64,000 nt of DNA, taken from Halosimplex halophilum (GTDB lineage: Archaea > Halobacteriota > Halobacteria > Halobacteriales > Haloarculaceae). Below, in pieces: positions 2,400-11,436 of the stretch. The DNA lies in contig NZ_ML214298.1 of NCBI RefSeq assembly GCF_004698125.1, positions 951,972 to 1,015,971 of the forward strand, in the 5' to 3' direction. The stretch's first letter is position 1. Each line of letters begins with the position of its first letter. The notes under the pieces are model-generated. The model did not search any database. It was not told the DNA's origin and saw only the letters and a program-made list of their open reading frames with translations. The translations under genes and the position numbers were made by a program.

Positions 2400-2415
2400 T
2401 TTAGGCTCGCCTAAA
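2400..2415. promoter_or_regulatory. DtxR-type iron box, upstream copy
   Basis: TTTAGGCTCGCCTAAA is a palindrome with 7-bp arms and a 2-bp centre. The TTAGG-N4-CCTAA core matches operators of DtxR/IdeR/SirR-family metalloregulators. It lies just upstream of the likely TATA element (CTTAAC near 2426) of the halocyanin gene. Confidence 0.75.
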
Positions 2416-2435
2416 ATCCGCAGCGCTTAACATTC

Positions 2436-2451
2436 TTTAGGTGGGCCTAAA
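2436..2451. promoter_or_regulatory. DtxR-type iron box, start-site copy
   Basis: TTTAGGTGGGCCTAAA repeats the same TTTAGG-N4-CCTAAA pattern 36 bp downstream of the first box. It ends 5 nt before the ATG at 2457, so on a leaderless transcript it would cover the transcription start. The two boxes bracket the TATA region, an arrangement suited to strong metal-dependent repression. Confidence 0.75.
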
Positions 2452-2456
2452 ACACG

Positions 2457-4999
2457 ATGCAACGGCGCAGACGCGAGGTACTGGCGACAGGGGCAGCGCT
2501 CGCGACGCTCGGCGTCGCAGGATGCAACGGGCTGTCGGGCGGCGACGGGACGGACGCGCCGGCCGAAACGTCGAGCGGCGAGGACGGCGACGGTGACGGC
2601 CCGGACAGCACGGCCGAGGGCGGCTCGCCGAGCGACGACGGTTCGGGCGGCTCCGCGTCGGTCGACGCGGCGGTCGCAGCCGAGTGGAACGCCATGCGCG
2701 CCCGGGTATGGGACGCCGCGGCGCTGGGCCGCGCCGGCGAGTTCGCCGCCGGCGCCTCGGTCGCGCAGTCGACGTTCGCGCGCTTCGAGAACGCCGGCGG
2801 CGAGCACGGCGCCCACGAGGCCCTCGAGTCGACCAGCGAGTCGAACTACGAGGCGTTCGAGGCGGCGCTCGGGGACCTCCGGAGCGACGGCCTCGACGCC
2901 GGCGACATCGAGCGCACGCGCGAGACGGCCGCGACGGCGAGCACGCAACTGGCCGAGGCCCAGCGCGCGCTCGTCGGCGAGGCTACCGCGCAGGCCCTCG
3001 CCCTCCAGCTGTTCGGCGCGGCGGCCCTCGACGCCGGCGCGCTCGCCGCGGCGGGCAACTTCGAGGGCGCGGGCGCGACGGCGGAGGCCGTCCTCGCGCG
3101 CTTCGAGGAGGCGGGCGTCCACGGCGCGCTCGAATCCGCGGACGCCGAGTCCTACGAGGCCTTCGAGGGGGCGCTCGAAGCCGCCGCGTCGGCCGCGGAC
3201 GACGGGGACCGGGAGGCGGTCCGCCGGGAGGTCGGGGCGGCCTACGTCGCCGCGGTCGACGGGAGCTACGCGCTGGCGGACGCCGAGGCGGCCGCGGCCG
3301 CAGGCCACATCGCGACGCTGCAGGCCCGCGGGTGGGACGCCGCGGCGCTCGCCGCGACCGGCGGGCCCTCGACCGACTACGCCCACGCAGCCGCGCTGAC
3401 GCTCTACCGCGCCCGGGCGGCCGACGCCGCCTGGCTGGCCGCCCGCGGCGAGACCGACCGCGCCGCGACGGTGGCGAGCGACGTCTTCGCCCACTTCGAG
3501 GGCGCCCGCGCCCACGAGGCCCTGGAGGAGGCCGACGGCGAGGCCTACGAGGGTTCGAGTCGGGGCTGTCCGCGCTCCGGTCGGCCATCGAGGACGGCGA
3601 CTCCGCCGGGATCGACGAGGCCCTCGCGACCGTCGACGGGAACCTCGTCGCCGGGGTCGAGGCGCTCGCCGGCGAACAGGCGCCCCTGCTGGCGGCCGCG
3701 TTCTTCCGCGCCCGGTTCGCGGACGCGCGTGAACTGTACCGGCTGGGGCAGAACAACGTCGCCGCGGGCCTCGCCCGGGGGCTGTTCGAGCGCTTCGAGG
3801 CCGACGAGCTCGGCGTCCACGAGGCCCTGGAGTCGACCGACGAGGACCTCTATCACACCTTCGAGGAGGAGCACCTCTCGGGGCTGATCGACGCCTTCGA
3901 GAACACCGACGACGGGGCGGTCGCCACCCACTACGAGGGCGTCCAGTCCGCGCTGCTGGAGTTCGAGACGGCCGCCGGCTCGACCGCGACCGTCAGCGGC
4001 GCTGAGGCCGCCTATATGGGCGCCCGCGGGTTCGACGCCGGCGCCCTCGACGCGCTCGGGAAGGACAGCCGCGCCGGCGCCGTCGCGCAGGGCGCCTTCG
4101 AGCACTTCGAGGCCGGCGCCGGCGGCTACCACGAGGCGCTCGAAGTCGCCGACGAGTCCGTCTACGAGGCCTTCGAAGACCGGCTGGGGGCGGTCTCCGC
4201 GGCCGCGGGGAACGGCGAGGACGTCTACGCGGCGAGCAAGTCGTTCAACGCCAGGGCCGTCGAATCAGCCTATGCGATCGTCGAGCACGCCGGCGGTTCG
4301 ACCAGCGGCGCCGCCGCGACGGTCCTCCAGGACGCCTTCACCCACTTCGAGACCGCGCGCGTCCACGACATGCTGGAAGGGGCCAGCCGCTCGGCCTACG
4401 AGAGCTTCGAGCGGCAGCTGGACGCATACCTCACCGCGCTCGACGAGGGCGGTGACGTGCGGGCGGCCGCCGACACCTTCGCCGACGCCTCGCTGTACGC
4501 CCAGTTCGCACTCGTCGACGGCGTCGAACAGCTCCCGATAGACCTGCGGGTCCCCGGAGCGAGCGGCGAGAGCGGCGGTGACAGCGGTGGCGGTGAGGGC
4601 GGCGGTAGCGGCGACGGCGGCGGGTCGAACCTGCAGGGCGGCCCCGACGTCGTCGAGGGCGTCCCCGACGACGCCGACCACGTCGTCGACATGACCGCCG
4701 TCGCCTTCGAGCCGGCGGAACTGACCGTCTCGCAGGGCGACACGGTGGCCTGGGCCCACGCCGGCGGCGAACCCCACAGCGTCACCGCCTACGCCGACGG
4801 CGTCCCCGACGGCGCCGAGTACTGGGCCTCCGGCGGCTTCGACTCCGAGGAGGCCGCGGTCTCCGGCTGGGAGGACGGCGAGGGCGCCGTCCGGTCGGGC
4901 CAGTCGTTCGTCCACACCTTCGAGGCGACCGGCACCCACGAGTACTACTGCGTCCCCCACGAGGCCGCCGGGATGGTCGGCTCCGTGACCGTCGAGTAA
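2457..4999 (+). pseudogene. Six-repeat halocyanin lipoprotein (DUF5059-like), one-base frameshift
   Basis: A Tat lipoprotein start (RRRREVLATG, lipobox GVAGC with Cys23) leads into an acidic linker and six repeats of about 30-45 conserved residues with consensus HFE..hEALE..(d)e..YEaFE..L. A Gly/Ser linker and a C-terminal blue-copper domain follow; the ligands are His in GEPHSVTA, Cys in YYCVP, His and Met in HEAAGM. In repeat 3 the frame breaks: the upstream frame reads EAYEGSSRG while the next frame resumes GFESGL at 3551-3553, as if one G were lost from a GGGG run. Restored, the protein would be about 847 aa. Both halves keep coding bias, so this may be a recent mutation, slippage or a sequencing error. 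Two iron boxes precede it. The DUF5059 label is from memory. Confidence 0.8.
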
Positions 5000-6262: not shown

Positions 6263-7126
6263 TCACGCGTCCGCGGTCCGCCGGACCAGGTCGGCGAGGT
6301 CGTCCCAGAAGCCGTCGACGTACTTGTCGGCGTCGTCGATGGTCGGGCGGGCGTTGGTCTCGTTGACGACCGCGCGGTCGTCGGTGACGAGTAGGTCGAC
6401 GCCGAGGAAGGGGATGTCCAGCGCGTCGGCGGTCCGCTCGGCCAGCTCGCGGAGTTCGGGGTCCAGATCGACGCGGCTGGCCTCGGCGCCGCGGTGGACG
6501 TTGTGCTTCCACTGGCCGGCGGCGAGGGCGTCGTCGGGGAGGCGTCGCTCGACGGCGCCGACGTACTCGCCGTCCAGCACCATCACGCGGTAGTCGGTCG
6601 CGCCGGGGAGGTACTCCTGGAGGAGGAAGGACTTGTCGCCAGTGGCTCGAAAGTCGTGGACGAGGTCGAGGTAGTCGACGACGCCCAGAAGGGAGTCCAG
6701 GTCGCCGGCCTTCGCGACGCCGACGCCGCGGGTCGTGGAGTTGGGCTTGACGACGACCGGCGGGTCCAGCCGCTCGAAGGCGGCGACGAGGTCGGACTCG
6801 TCGACGGGGTTCGAGACCATCACCGTCTCGGGGACCGGCACGTCGGCGGCGGCGAGGCGCGCGATGGCCCCCGCCTTGTTCCGCGAGCGGAGGACCGCCT
6901 CGCGGTCGTTGACCCAGGGAACGGCGAGGGCGGCGTCGGCGACGCCGCCCTCCATCAGCCGGGGCGGGAAGACGAACCCGGCGTCGAACGCCGCCCAGGG
7001 CGGGTCGGTCAGGTGGACCGTCCGCTCGCGGGTGCGGACGTGTTCGACCGCGATGTCGCGGTCGGCGAGCGGCCCCTGCATCCGCTCGTACGTTTCGGCG
7101 TTGGTGGCGACCGCCAGCCTGCGCAT
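6263..7126 (-). CDS. RimK-like ATP-grasp ligase
   Basis: The 287-aa protein has the ATP-grasp layout of the RimK/LysX group: N-terminal Rossmann-like part (MRRLAVATNAETYERM), a lid with PPVVVKPNSTTRGVGVAKA, the QEYLPGATDYRVMVLDGEYV strand pair, and the metal-binding end DLLVTDDRAVVNETNARPT. Such enzymes join an amino acid or amine to a carboxyl group through an acylphosphate. The substrate is not evident. Start 7126 fits the family N terminus. It is divergent from uspA across a spacer with nested palindromes. Confidence 0.85.
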   Translation of the reverse strand: MRRLAVATNAETYERMQGPLADRDIAVEHVRTRERTVHLTDPPWAAFDAGFVFPPRLMEGGVADAALAVPWVNDREAVLRSRNKAGAIARLAAADVPVPETVMVSNPVDESDLVAAFERLDPPVVVKPNSTTRGVGVAKAGDLDSLLGVVDYLDLVHDFRATGDKSFLLQEYLPGATDYRVMVLDGEYVGAVERRLPDDALAAGQWKHNVHRGAEASRVDLDPELRELAERTADALDIPFLGVDLLVTDDRAVVNETNARPTIDDADKYVDGFWDDLADLVRRTADA

Positions 7127-7218
7127 ACCTGTCGGTTGGCGGGTTTCGACAAAAACCCGCCGACCGCCGCCCCGCGAACGAGCCCCGCCGCGAGGGGCCC
7201 GAAGCACAGAACGAATAG

Positions 7219-7263
7219 TCGATAATCGGGTGAATTATCGAACATTGTTGAAAATAATTCACC
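7219..7263. promoter_or_regulatory. Two overlapping palindromes in the uspA divergent promoter
   Basis: TCGATAAT (7219-7226) pairs with ATTATCGA (7234-7241) across 7 bp. GGTGAATTAT (7229-7238) pairs with ATAATTCACC (7254-7263) across 15 bp. Both arm pairs are perfect and share the ATTAT block at 7234-7238, so binding or folding at one excludes the other. The block is AT-rich in a GC-rich genome and lies between the ATP-grasp gene and uspA. Confidence 0.65.
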
Positions 7264-7295
7264 ATAAGCGTTTGTTCGCCCCCCGGGCGGTGGGA

Positions 7296-7769
7296 ATGCC
7301 GGAAACCGGGATGACTCCGGGGGCGGAACGGTTGGGTGTGTACGACGAGATACTCTACCCGACGGACGGGAGCGAGGGAGCGGACGCAGCGCTGGAGCAC
7401 GCGCTGACGCTGGCGGGCGCGATGGACGCGACCGTCCGCGTGCTGTACGTCGTCGACACGACGTACCTCGGCAGCGCCGCGGCCGAGGGGACGACCGTCG
7501 AGTCGCTGCGGGCCGCGAGCGAGGAGGTCGTCGCGGAGACGGTCGAGGCGTTCGCGGACCGGGGCGTCGAGGCGACCGGCGAGGTGCGCGAGGGCGAACC
7601 GTACAAGGAGATCCTGGCGGCGGCCGGGGAGTCGGGCGTCGACGCGGTCGTGATGGGGACCCACGGGCGGCGCGGGCTGGACCGGTACCTGCTGGGGAGC
7701 GTCACCGAGAAGGTCGTGCGCGCGGCCGAGGTGCCGGTGTTGACGGTCCGCCTCGACGACGGGGACTGA
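7296..7769 (+). CDS. Universal stress protein (UspA family)
   Basis: The protein has the single-domain Usp pattern: YDEILYPTDGSEGADAAL at the front, RVLYVVD after the second helix, and the ATP-binding end GTHGRRGLDRYLLGSVTEKVVRAAEVPVLTV (G-2x-G-9x-G-S/T). ATP-binding Usp proteins help cells survive stress; no specific role is visible. The start is uncertain: ATG 7296 (157 aa) is given, with ATG 7311 and GTG 7338 also in frame. The family usually starts right before YDEIL, which favours 7338. Nested palindromes sit upstream. Confidence 0.88.
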   Translation: MPETGMTPGAERLGVYDEILYPTDGSEGADAALEHALTLAGAMDATVRVLYVVDTTYLGSAAAEGTTVESLRAASEEVVAETVEAFADRGVEATGEVREGEPYKEILAAAGESGVDAVVMGTHGRRGLDRYLLGSVTEKVVRAAEVPVLTVRLDDGD

Positions 7770-7826
7770 CGGGACCGGGAAGCCCTGCCGCTCGCCGACG
7801 GGGGAGCAACCGAGAGGAAGGCCGGT

Positions 7827-8357
7827 TCAGGCGATCAGCAGTTCTTCGCCGCGCTCGACCTTGATGCGGCAGGGCGGGGTGATCTTGTTGTACGCGCGGC
7901 GGTAGGCCTCCTTGACTTCCTCGGCCTGGTCGACGTCGCAGTAGGCCGTGAAGAGGCGCTCGCCGGACTGGATGCGCGCGGCGGTGCCGACGATCTTGCC
8001 GAACGCCTGGCGCATGCCGTCGGAGACGCGGTCGGCGCCGGCGCCGGTCGCCTGTTTGTTCTCGCGGATGACCTGGTGGGGGAACTTCCGGAGGACCATC
8101 TTGTAGTTGCCCTCGCCGAGCTCCTTGATCAGGTGGCGGTTGGCCGAGAGCCGCGAGGCCTCCATGGAGCCGTGGCGCAGCTGGACCGACTCCTCGACGA
8201 TGAGGCTGATCTGGACCGGGTAGTCCTCGGGGTCGGCGTTCTTGTCGCCCATCTGGTGCTGTGCGATCTTCGAGCCGGGAATACCCGTGATGTACTCCCG
8301 TCGGGTGTACGCGGGCTTGTCGATGTCCCGGTACATCGAGGCAGGTTTGTCGGCCAT
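7827..8357 (-). CDS. rpl10e: 50S ribosomal protein uL16 (L10e)
   Basis: The 176-aa sequence reads as archaeal L10e from the first residue: [31 protein letters not shown], later [20 protein letters not shown] and [17 protein letters not shown]. uL16 lies near the tRNA acceptor-stem site of the large subunit. A CTTTATCC TATA-like element is about 30 nt upstream on the minus strand (near 8386-8397), giving a short or no leader. Confidence 0.96.
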
Positions 8358-8455
8358 AGTCTTGTCGTAGACGAGTCCGAGCGCGTGGATAAAGCCTTCG
8401 AACCCGCCCGGCCCCCTGCGAACTGGTGACAGTCGCCCGCCGCGCTCGCGGACCC

Positions 8456-10759
8456 TCACTCGCGGTCCGGGTCCCGCTCGTCGTCGGGGGCCGGGACCCC
8501 GAAGCCGTCGAGTTCGTCGACCAGCGCGTCCGGTTCGACCACGTCCACGCCGGCCGCGGCGGCGCGCTCGCGGACCGCGGGCGGGAGCGTCGCGCCCGCG
8601 ACGAGGACCGCCGCGTCCAGTCGGTCGTCGCGCTCGACGGCGGCGGCCAGGCGGTCGACGGCCGCTTCGTCGAGCGTCGACGCCTCGTCCGCAGGGACCG
8701 CGAGCACGCCCGCGCGAACGTCGACCGGCCCCGGCGCCGTCGCGCGGAGGTCGGGGCCGTCCGTCGCGCCGTCGTCGACCACGCCGCCGCCGGCCGTCTC
8801 GACAGTCCACCCGGTCGCACGGAGGCAGTCGGCCACGGTTTCCCCGAACGCCTCGGCGCCGAGCGCCGCCAGCGCCGCCGGCGTCCACCCGTCCGACACA
8901 CCGGCTCCGGGGCCGCCCTCGGGTCCGCCCCTCGTGGTGCACCCGCTCGTGTCCCGCGGTTCGTCCGCCCCGTCCGCTCCGTCCGCCCCGTTCCCGAGGA
9001 CGGTGTCAGCCGACTCGGCCGCGTCGGCGACCCTCTCCGCGTCGGTCGTGTCCGCGCCGGCGTCGGCGTCGAGCGACTGGCCGGTCGCGTCGGTATCGGC
9101 GGCGTCGGCATCGCTCCTCGCCGTGTCGGCGTCGGTCGCCCCGGCGGCGTCGTCCGCGGTCCCTGTCCGCTCGGCGGACAGCCACTCGTCGTCCCCGCCG
9201 TCGTCGGCGAGCATCCAGCCGTCGCCCATCGCCGCGGACGCGTCGTCGTCGGCCTCGCCCGTCGCCGCGTCGGCGCCTCCGCTGACGGTACCGCCGCCGC
9301 CGTCGGCGTCCGCGTCTTCTGCGGCATCCGTGTCTCCGTCGGCGTTGCGGCCGCCCTCGCCGGGTGAGACGACGACCGTCCCGGCGTCGGAGACCTCGTT
9401 GTCGTCGGGGCCGGGGCGGCAGTCGGCGAGCCGTTCGTCGAGCGCCTCGACGCCGTCGAGCGCGTCGGGGACCCGCTCGCGGGCGACCGACCGGGCGGCG
9501 TCGAGCGACGACTCGGCGCGCTCGCAGGCCGCCGCGGCCGCGCCGGGCGGCGCGTCCTCGGCCGCGTCGAGCGCCCGGCGGGCCCGCTCGCAGCGCGTCT
9601 CGACCAGCTGTCGGGCGACCATCGCCAGCCGCTCGCGGACCGCCTCGCGGTCGCCCTCGAAGCGCGGCTCGTCGCGCCCCCAGTCGAGCGCGTGGACCCG
9701 CTCGTACCGCTCCAGCGCCCGCTCCCACCACGCCTCGGCGGTTTCGAGGTCGTCGGCCCCCCGGGCCATCTCGACGGCCTGCTCGGCGCGTTCGAGCGGC
9801 GCGGCGGCCAGCCGCTCGCGCTCGGCGACCAGGTTCGCCCGCCGGCGCTCGATCAGCTCGTCGTCCGGCCGGTCGGCGTCGACCGACAGCGCCGCCGCGT
9901 AGCTGTCGACCGCCCGCTCGAAGTGGTCCGCCGCCGCCTCGTAGGCGTGGTCGTCCCAGCGGGTGTGGCCGCGCTCGCGGGCCTGTTCGGCCTGCTCGGC
10001 GTAGGCGCGGCGCTCGAAGGCCGCCAGCCGCTCCCGGTAGTCCCCGGCCCGGTCGGCGACCGACGCGGCGGCCCCGTCCAGCGGCGCCGCGGCCTCGCGG
10101 GCCTCGTCCAGCGTCTCGCGCACGTCGCCGACCGCCGCCAGCACCACGTCCGCGTCGCCGGCCTCGAAGGCCCGCTCGATCCGGTCGAGCGTCTCCGCGG
10201 CGCTCTCGAGGCGGCGCTCGGCGCTCGACCAGATCCCCGCGGCCGCGTCGACGAACTCCCGGACCGCGGTCAGGTCCCCCCGCGACGGGAACCGGTACTG
10301 CGCGCCCGAGACGAGGTCGAGGACGAGCGTCTCGTCGAGCAGCCCCGCCTCCGTCCGGGCGTCGACCACGTCCGCCAGCGGGACCGAGCGCGTCCGGTCG
10401 CCCCCCGCGCGCCCGGCGGCGAACAGTACCCGCGTGTCGGTCACCAGCGCCGCCGCGCTGTGGTCGCCGTCCGGCGCGACCTGCCCGGTGTCGACGGCCC
10501 CGGCGGCGCCGTTCGCGACCCCCTGTTCCGCCCCGGCGTTCACAGTCCCGCGGTCCCCGCCGTCGTTCGCGTCTCCCTCGGTCCGCTCGACGGTGAACCC
10601 CCGTTTCTTGTTCCGGACGACGAACCGCGGCGTCTCGGCCCCCTCGACGTACTCGGCGAGCGGCCGCTCGTGCAACAGCCCCCGACCGATGAGCCCGCCG
10701 CTCCCCGTCTCCGTGAGCACCTGTGCGTCCCCGTCCTCGACTTCGATGACGTGTTCCAT
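8456..10759 (-). CDS. Large PH-like/coiled-coil protein with a degenerate nuclease-like C-terminus
   Basis: 767 aa. The N-terminal 170 residues include a strand-rich module ([36 protein letters not shown]) resembling bacterial PH/GRAM domains. Residues about 170-440 are Ala/Glu/Arg-rich helices with TPR-like spacing ([20 protein letters not shown]). Residues about 450-640 are a very acidic Asp/Ala/Gly low-complexity linker. The last 130 residues ([13 protein letters not shown]... [18 protein letters not shown]) have the alternating pattern of Mrr/restriction-endonuclease-like folds without a clear catalytic set. The function is unknown. ATG 10759 was chosen because coding bias stops there. 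Confidence 0.7.
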
Positions 10760-11436
10760 GTCGCCCCCACCGCGCGTGACTGGCGTAACCGTCGAATGGG
10801 TGATACTAAACGCTTGCGTCGGTCCCGATCGACGTTCGCGCTCCCGTTCGCGACGCGTCCCCGACGATCGACCCGGCCGCAGCGGACAGCTGTGCTGAAC
10901 GCCCTCGACGCGCTCGCTAGCAGTGACTGCGACAGTACTCGACGGTAAGCGTTGAAAGCCCTCGGCGCACTCGCGGTCGCTGAGGCGGGATATCCGCGCT
11001 CTCGGCACCGCCCGCTCACGGCAGCGCCGTTCGCTTCGAGGCGCCCAGCGCCTCGCACCGCGCGGATAGTTGCCCACTCAGACGACTGAACAAGCGCGAG
11101 CGCGCCTCGCCCGTTCAGTCCACCGGGAGAGCAAGCTCTCCCGAGCCCGCGCTCACACGTTCGCGCGGACACCAGGGACCGCACCGCCCGGCACCGCGAC
11201 CGCACCGCACGGCACCGCAAACGACCACGACCCTCCCCAGCCGATTCGCTCTCTCGCTGCGCTCGCTCGCTCATCCCTCGCGCGATGCTGTCGCGAGACG
11301 AGACTCGCGACAGCGCGCGCCGACCGCATTCGGTCGTCGAGCGTCCGCGTCGGGGGATCGCGGGGTGGACGGGCGTCCGGTTACTCGTGTGTCACTGGTG
11401 TCCTTTTGGGTGTCGCGGCCCAAGGGACGACCAGCC
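10760..11436. other. Hairpin-rich divergent non-coding spacer
   Basis: 677 bp with no convincing gene in any frame. It separates two divergent genes and contains at least five perfect inverted repeats between 11037 and 11336, plus low-complexity CGCTCGCTGCGCTCGCTC-type sequence near 11245-11272. The GST-like gene's likely promoter (TCCTTTTGGG at 11401-11410) lies at its right end. Confidence 0.6.
11037..11336. repeat. Cluster of perfect inverted repeats
   Basis: The pairs are: CGAGGCGC/GCGCCTCG (11037-11055, 3-nt loop); GACTGAAC/GTTCAGTC (11084-11091 and 11113-11120); CGGGAGAGC/GCTCTCCCG (11124-11143, 2-nt centre); GCTGTCGCGAG/CTCGCGACAGC (11287-11314, 11-bp stem, 6-nt loop); CGACCG/CGGTCG (11321-11336, 4-nt loop). 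All arms are perfect. Whether they act as RNA hairpins, protein sites or mobile-element remnants is not clear. Confidence 0.8.

Follow-up and report, generated by a model that had tools for sequence, protein, structure and literature searches.

A split DUF5059 gene behind twin palindromes

The DNA analysed here (the window) is a stretch of 64,000 nt from Halosimplex halophilum (GCF_004698125.1, contig NZ_ML214298.1, positions 951,972 to 1,015,971 of the forward strand). It contains an hcpG-like gene, on the + strand throughout, that is preceded by two palindromes and interrupted by a frameshift. The 5' part (2457..3548) encodes an RRR signal, the lipobox LGVAGC and the first DUF5059 repeats (1 to about 3); it matches PF16502 at E 3e-108 and is 82% identical to a Halosimplex pelagicum protein. 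The 3' part (3557..4999) encodes the rest of DUF5059 (PF16502, E 1.7e-122) and a C-terminal plastocyanin-like domain (PF00127, E 7.5e-17). The PF16502 scores of the two frames, 363.7 and 410.7 bits against a cut-off of 25, place the product in the DUF5059 family, and the 62 bits obtained with PF00127 (cut-off 21.2) place its C-terminal domain among the type-1 copper proteins of the plastocyanin family.

The frameshift joining the two frames (3549..3556) was located by six-frame reading and alignment to an intact relative, and a search of the genome returned two separate PF16502 matches for the split gene. DUF5059 relatives are intact, unlike the copy in the window; the orthologue in H. pelagicum (locus L133) is 82-83% identical and has the same GcvH and macro-domain neighbours. 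Because both pieces are well conserved, the frameshift would either have arisen recently or stem from an error in the assembly. A previous sequence-only reading of this DNA had described a copper-domain lipoprotein. The ATG, the lipoprotein character and the copper domain stand, while the split of the frame near 3549-3556 had gone unreported and the protein proves to be mostly a large DUF5059 helical repeat, with the copper domain confined to the C-terminus.

In AlphaFold2 models, four-helix bundles of ~103 residues each are strung together and followed by a plastocyanin fold. The copper ligands His-Cys-His-Met are invariant in 28 relatives, and the plastocyanin fold of one relative was matched with a Z of 14.1 and an rmsd of 1.2 over 91 residues. 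The bundles repeat the motif FE..HExLE..YExFE, and their number varies among relatives (503 vs about 820 aa). Fold searches with the helical part returned generic four-helix bundles only, none at E 0.001 or better; the matches to imelysin 3n8u (Z 9.6 over 102 residues) and the small metal-binding protein SMBP (Z 10.8) lie within the helical-bundle background. With no discriminating fold match, metal binding by the helical domain is therefore conjectural.

Upstream of the gene, the pattern TTAGG-N4-CCTAA occurs twice, in both cases as an exact TTTAGG-N4-CCTAAA. The distal DtxR-type box (TTTAGG-CTCG-CCTAAA, 2400..2415) lies 5' of the BRE/TATA region and the proximal box (TTTAGG-TGGG-CCTAAA, 2436..2451) reaches to within 5 bp of the ATG at 2457; no strand is assigned to either. 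They are 36 bp apart from start to start, just as the sequence-only reading had described, leaving a gap of 20 bp. These two are the perfect boxes of the window, for which shuffles predict 0.06 matches even when up to two mismatches are allowed. The gap corresponds to a putative basal promoter (2416..2435, + strand) with a probable TATA element, CTTAAC (~2426-2431). Located 26-31 bp 5' of the ATG, CTTAAC is a plausible BRE/TATA sequence; the aligned column is T/A-rich in DUF5059 relatives, and a BRE/TATA-like TCCGGAACC-TTTATA is found at DtxR and siderophore-SBP promoters of the same genome. The arrangement fits a leaderless gene at 2457 whose transcription start is predicted from position, and the spacing of the TATA-like element would put the proximal box over that start. 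The earlier description of boxes bracketing the TATA region and reaching up to a leaderless ATG is thus upheld, with the start site itself inferred. Flanking the TATA element and the predicted start, the boxes are positioned compatibly with repression by binding.

The box within the genome and across haloarchaea

Searching the H. halophilum genome for the same box near iron-uptake genes, a check that the sequence-only reading had proposed, led to siderophore SBPs, FecCD, Fe-S genes and DtxR genes. The perfect 16-mer occurs 14 times and its 14-bp core 16 times, compared with 0 for the reversed control of each. Neighbours of perfect boxes include FecB-type and SBP_bac_8 lipoproteins, a FecCD permease, a NifU-like gene, two DtxR-family genes and a gene 3' of a ferritin-like gene. 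Boxes with one mismatch are present at sufC-sufB, a ZIP transporter gene and a siderophore-type GNAT gene. Other boxes adjoin genes with no obvious connection to iron (sugar transferase, MBL fold, Gfo/Idh). The complete layout of box, BRE/TATA, box, 3-5 bp and ATG is common to the window gene, one DtxR gene and two FecB-type SBP genes.

The GNAT gene (PF13523, C3:568677-568722) has twin near-boxes. IucA/IucC had no match in this genome, and the GNAT may be a vestige or belong to another siderophore route. A DUF7551/DUF7552 protein of unknown function (C2:14942) starts directly at an iron box, the last base of which falls within the start codon.

Four clear PF01325 genes encode DtxR-family regulators, one of them with the full DtxR/Fe_dep_repr_C/FeoA plan, and all four are candidate repressors of the box. 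The best curated models for these proteins are MntR ones, with scores far below the cut-offs. Two short DtxR-family genes (C1:1329405-1329457 and C2:407944) carry the box themselves, one in the twin layout up to the ATG, which suggests autoregulation.

We surveyed 242 haloarchaeal genomes from 73 genera and found DUF5059 in 70 of the genomes and 27 of the genera. A second, overlapping set comprised 68 loci from named genomes, including Halobacterium salinarum, Haloferax, Haloarcula and Natrinema; given the kinship among these genomes, the 68 loci do not amount to 68 independent events. Every one of the 65 DUF5059 genes read in the 242-genome sample has the box upstream, in 55 cases as a pair 33-37 bp apart. 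At the named loci the box is present in 67 of 68, the sole exception being truncated by the end of its contig. Counterparts of the distal box, and with them the twin pair, are kept in 62/68 named and 55/65 sampled genes, and 66 of 67 named relatives have a proximal box that stops 2-7 bp short of the ATG. The half-sites are invariant while the N4 spacer and the flanks vary among relatives.

Dinucleotide shuffles, the reversed pattern and 1.0 Mb of flanking DNA served as controls. The 13.6 kb of DNA upstream of DUF5059 genes hold 138 boxes vs 43 in the 1.0 Mb of flanks. Moreover, 96 of 97 haloarchaeal genomes contain a perfect box, and the reversed control gave 0 in most.

Among the 68 named loci DUF5059 has neither a conserved operon partner nor a constant iron-gene neighbour. 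In Halonotius pteroides (~6829-11321 of its locus) the gene adjoins NifU-like and DUF7551/7552-like genes; the counterparts of these neighbours in the window's genome, matched by sequence likeness only, each carry an iron box elsewhere in that genome. Genomes with DUF5059 tend to encode IucA/IucC siderophore synthases as well (odds ratio 3.1, p 3e-4, phylogeny ignored), which mildly favours an iron role for the protein.

Probable iron control and possible role of the copper protein

Taken together, the boxes are best explained as operators for a DtxR-family, iron-loaded repressor, a reading that we consider probable as a whole. DtxR-type iron control of the entire DUF5059 gene family is very likely on this sequence evidence because of the identity of the box, the company of iron genes in which it is found and its near-universal conservation before DUF5059 genes. 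The DtxR-type iron operator proposed from the window by itself is strongly supported by the same identity, by the recurrence of the box at iron-uptake, Fe-S and DtxR genes and by its class-wide conservation. As predicted operators, the two boxes form part of an iron regulon that is small and class-wide. Under sufficient iron, a repressor dimer sitting on each box would keep out TBP/TFB and RNA polymerase, so that no initiation complex could form at the TATA element between them. Under iron shortage, the repressor would leave its sites and the gene would be expressed.

What the product does can be said with lower confidence than what the operators do. It is presumably a surface protein anchored in the membrane. 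Its acidic four-helix bundles, about six in number and carrying the FE..HExLE..YExFE motif, might bind or handle metal, and its type-1 copper domain would move electrons, most likely aiding surface iron acquisition. The role suggested by the sequence-only reading, supplying electrons to reduce or take up iron, would be compatible with this. More speculatively, DUF5059-cupredoxin proteins may be a haloarchaeal kind of surface iron-acquisition protein that would combine a series of metal-binding four-helix bundles with a copper redox centre and do the work of EfeO, P19 or Fet3 without an FTR1 permease.

The main rival keeps the same iron operator and makes the protein an iron-free copper electron carrier, which during iron shortage would replace or supplement electron transfer to terminal oxidases or reductases and so spare iron without taking a direct part in uptake. 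It owes this standing to halocyanin, which is regarded as the one-electron carrier of haloarchaea (PMC8305020). A carrier role could also account for the constancy of the copper ligands against a changing number of helical repeats, and for a neighbourhood that is not tied to iron-uptake genes. However, a helical repeat domain of 600 residues would be superfluous for a carrier, and the gene shares its box layout and apparent coregulation with siderophore uptake genes. The halocyanin model also speaks against it, as two relatives score 46.3 and 49.6 bits with NCBIfam TIGR03102, below its cut-off of 93.8. Iron sparing is a credible though uncertain account, and we slightly favour surface iron acquisition over it.

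A different metal is an unlikely alternative for the operator: the box could be read mainly by an MntR/SirR-type member of the family, with the gene answering to manganese or to divalent metals in general. The closest curated models of the genome's DtxR proteins are indeed those of MntR, and one of the one-mismatch boxes has a ZIP transporter gene nearby, but the MntR scores fall far under the cut-offs and genes for siderophore uptake and Fe-S assembly prevail in the box set. Chance palindromes, or a repeat without regulatory function, are a highly improbable account of the boxes given the shuffles, the reversed-pattern controls, the spacing and the class-wide conservation, and we found nothing in support of it.

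With iron control as the preferred reading, a nearly unstudied and uncharacterised copper-protein family can be assigned to a known type of regulon, and a conserved operator would tie this widespread family (27 of the 73 genera sampled) to iron limitation. This provides a functional lead for DUF5059 and raises the question of whether a copper protein at the archaeal surface serves iron uptake or iron sparing. The analysis also describes paired operators that recur around archaeal TATA boxes in an iron regulon.

Comparison with known systems

EfeO, which joins a cupredoxin to an imelysin/M75 domain, belongs to the EfeUOB iron transporters. The DUF5059 protein resembles it in combining an extracytoplasmic cupredoxin with helical bundles and in its predicted iron regulation, but its cupredoxin sits at the opposite end, and it has neither the GxHxxE motif nor an FTR1/EfeU partner. 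FTR1/EfeU (PF03239) is absent from the genome itself and from all 242 haloarchaeal genomes, the motif conserved in DUF5059 in place of GxHxxE is H-E-x-L-E, whose later Glu lies at H+4, and M75 gave no Pfam match to the protein at E values up to 1. An identity with EfeUOB or EfeO-imelysin was rejected on these grounds.

The same plan of lipoprotein, DUF5059 and blue-copper domain is found in the halocyanin HcpG/DUF5059 (PF16502) of H. mediterranei (HFX_RS06015, PMC9240420). In that paper the family appears solely among listed copper proteins, and no iron control is described; the copy in the window differs in being frameshifted. We also considered and dropped an identity with H. volcanii HVO_2150 (hcpG), which papers place near nirK/nor, as the Haloferax DUF5059 genes (L139, L166) adjoin che genes and a permease. 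The name hcpG therefore seems to cover two different proteins.

DtxR-type iron regulons are already known in haloarchaea. The primary papers are reportedly those of Leyn and Rodionov 2015, Schmid 2011 and Martinez-Pastor 2024, and the DUF5059 gene is possibly already listed in published haloarchaeal regulons. The haloarchaeal iron network, as cited in two papers, comprises Idr1, Idr2, SirR and TroR together with a predicted FerR signal (PMC11349517, PMC6978704). Its likeness to the present boxes is that siderophore ABC transporter genes are controlled by the DtxR family, and the box regulon is very probably the same as the Idr1/Idr2/SirR/TroR regulon.

In Actinobacteria, the IdeR/DtxR operator is the 19-bp TTAGGTTAGSCTAACCTAA, and a structural study of IdeR proposed TTAGGNNNNCCTAA as the 14-bp consensus for a single dimer (PMC8464063). 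The core of the window box is exactly this one-dimer TTAGGNNNNCCTAA. The two systems are alike in their CCTAA half-sites, in the 4-bp spacing of the one-dimer site and in their iron-gene neighbours. They differ in architecture: while the actinobacterial operator is one 19-bp box for two overlapping dimers, here an archaeal TATA element lies between two separate one-dimer boxes spaced 33-37 bp apart.
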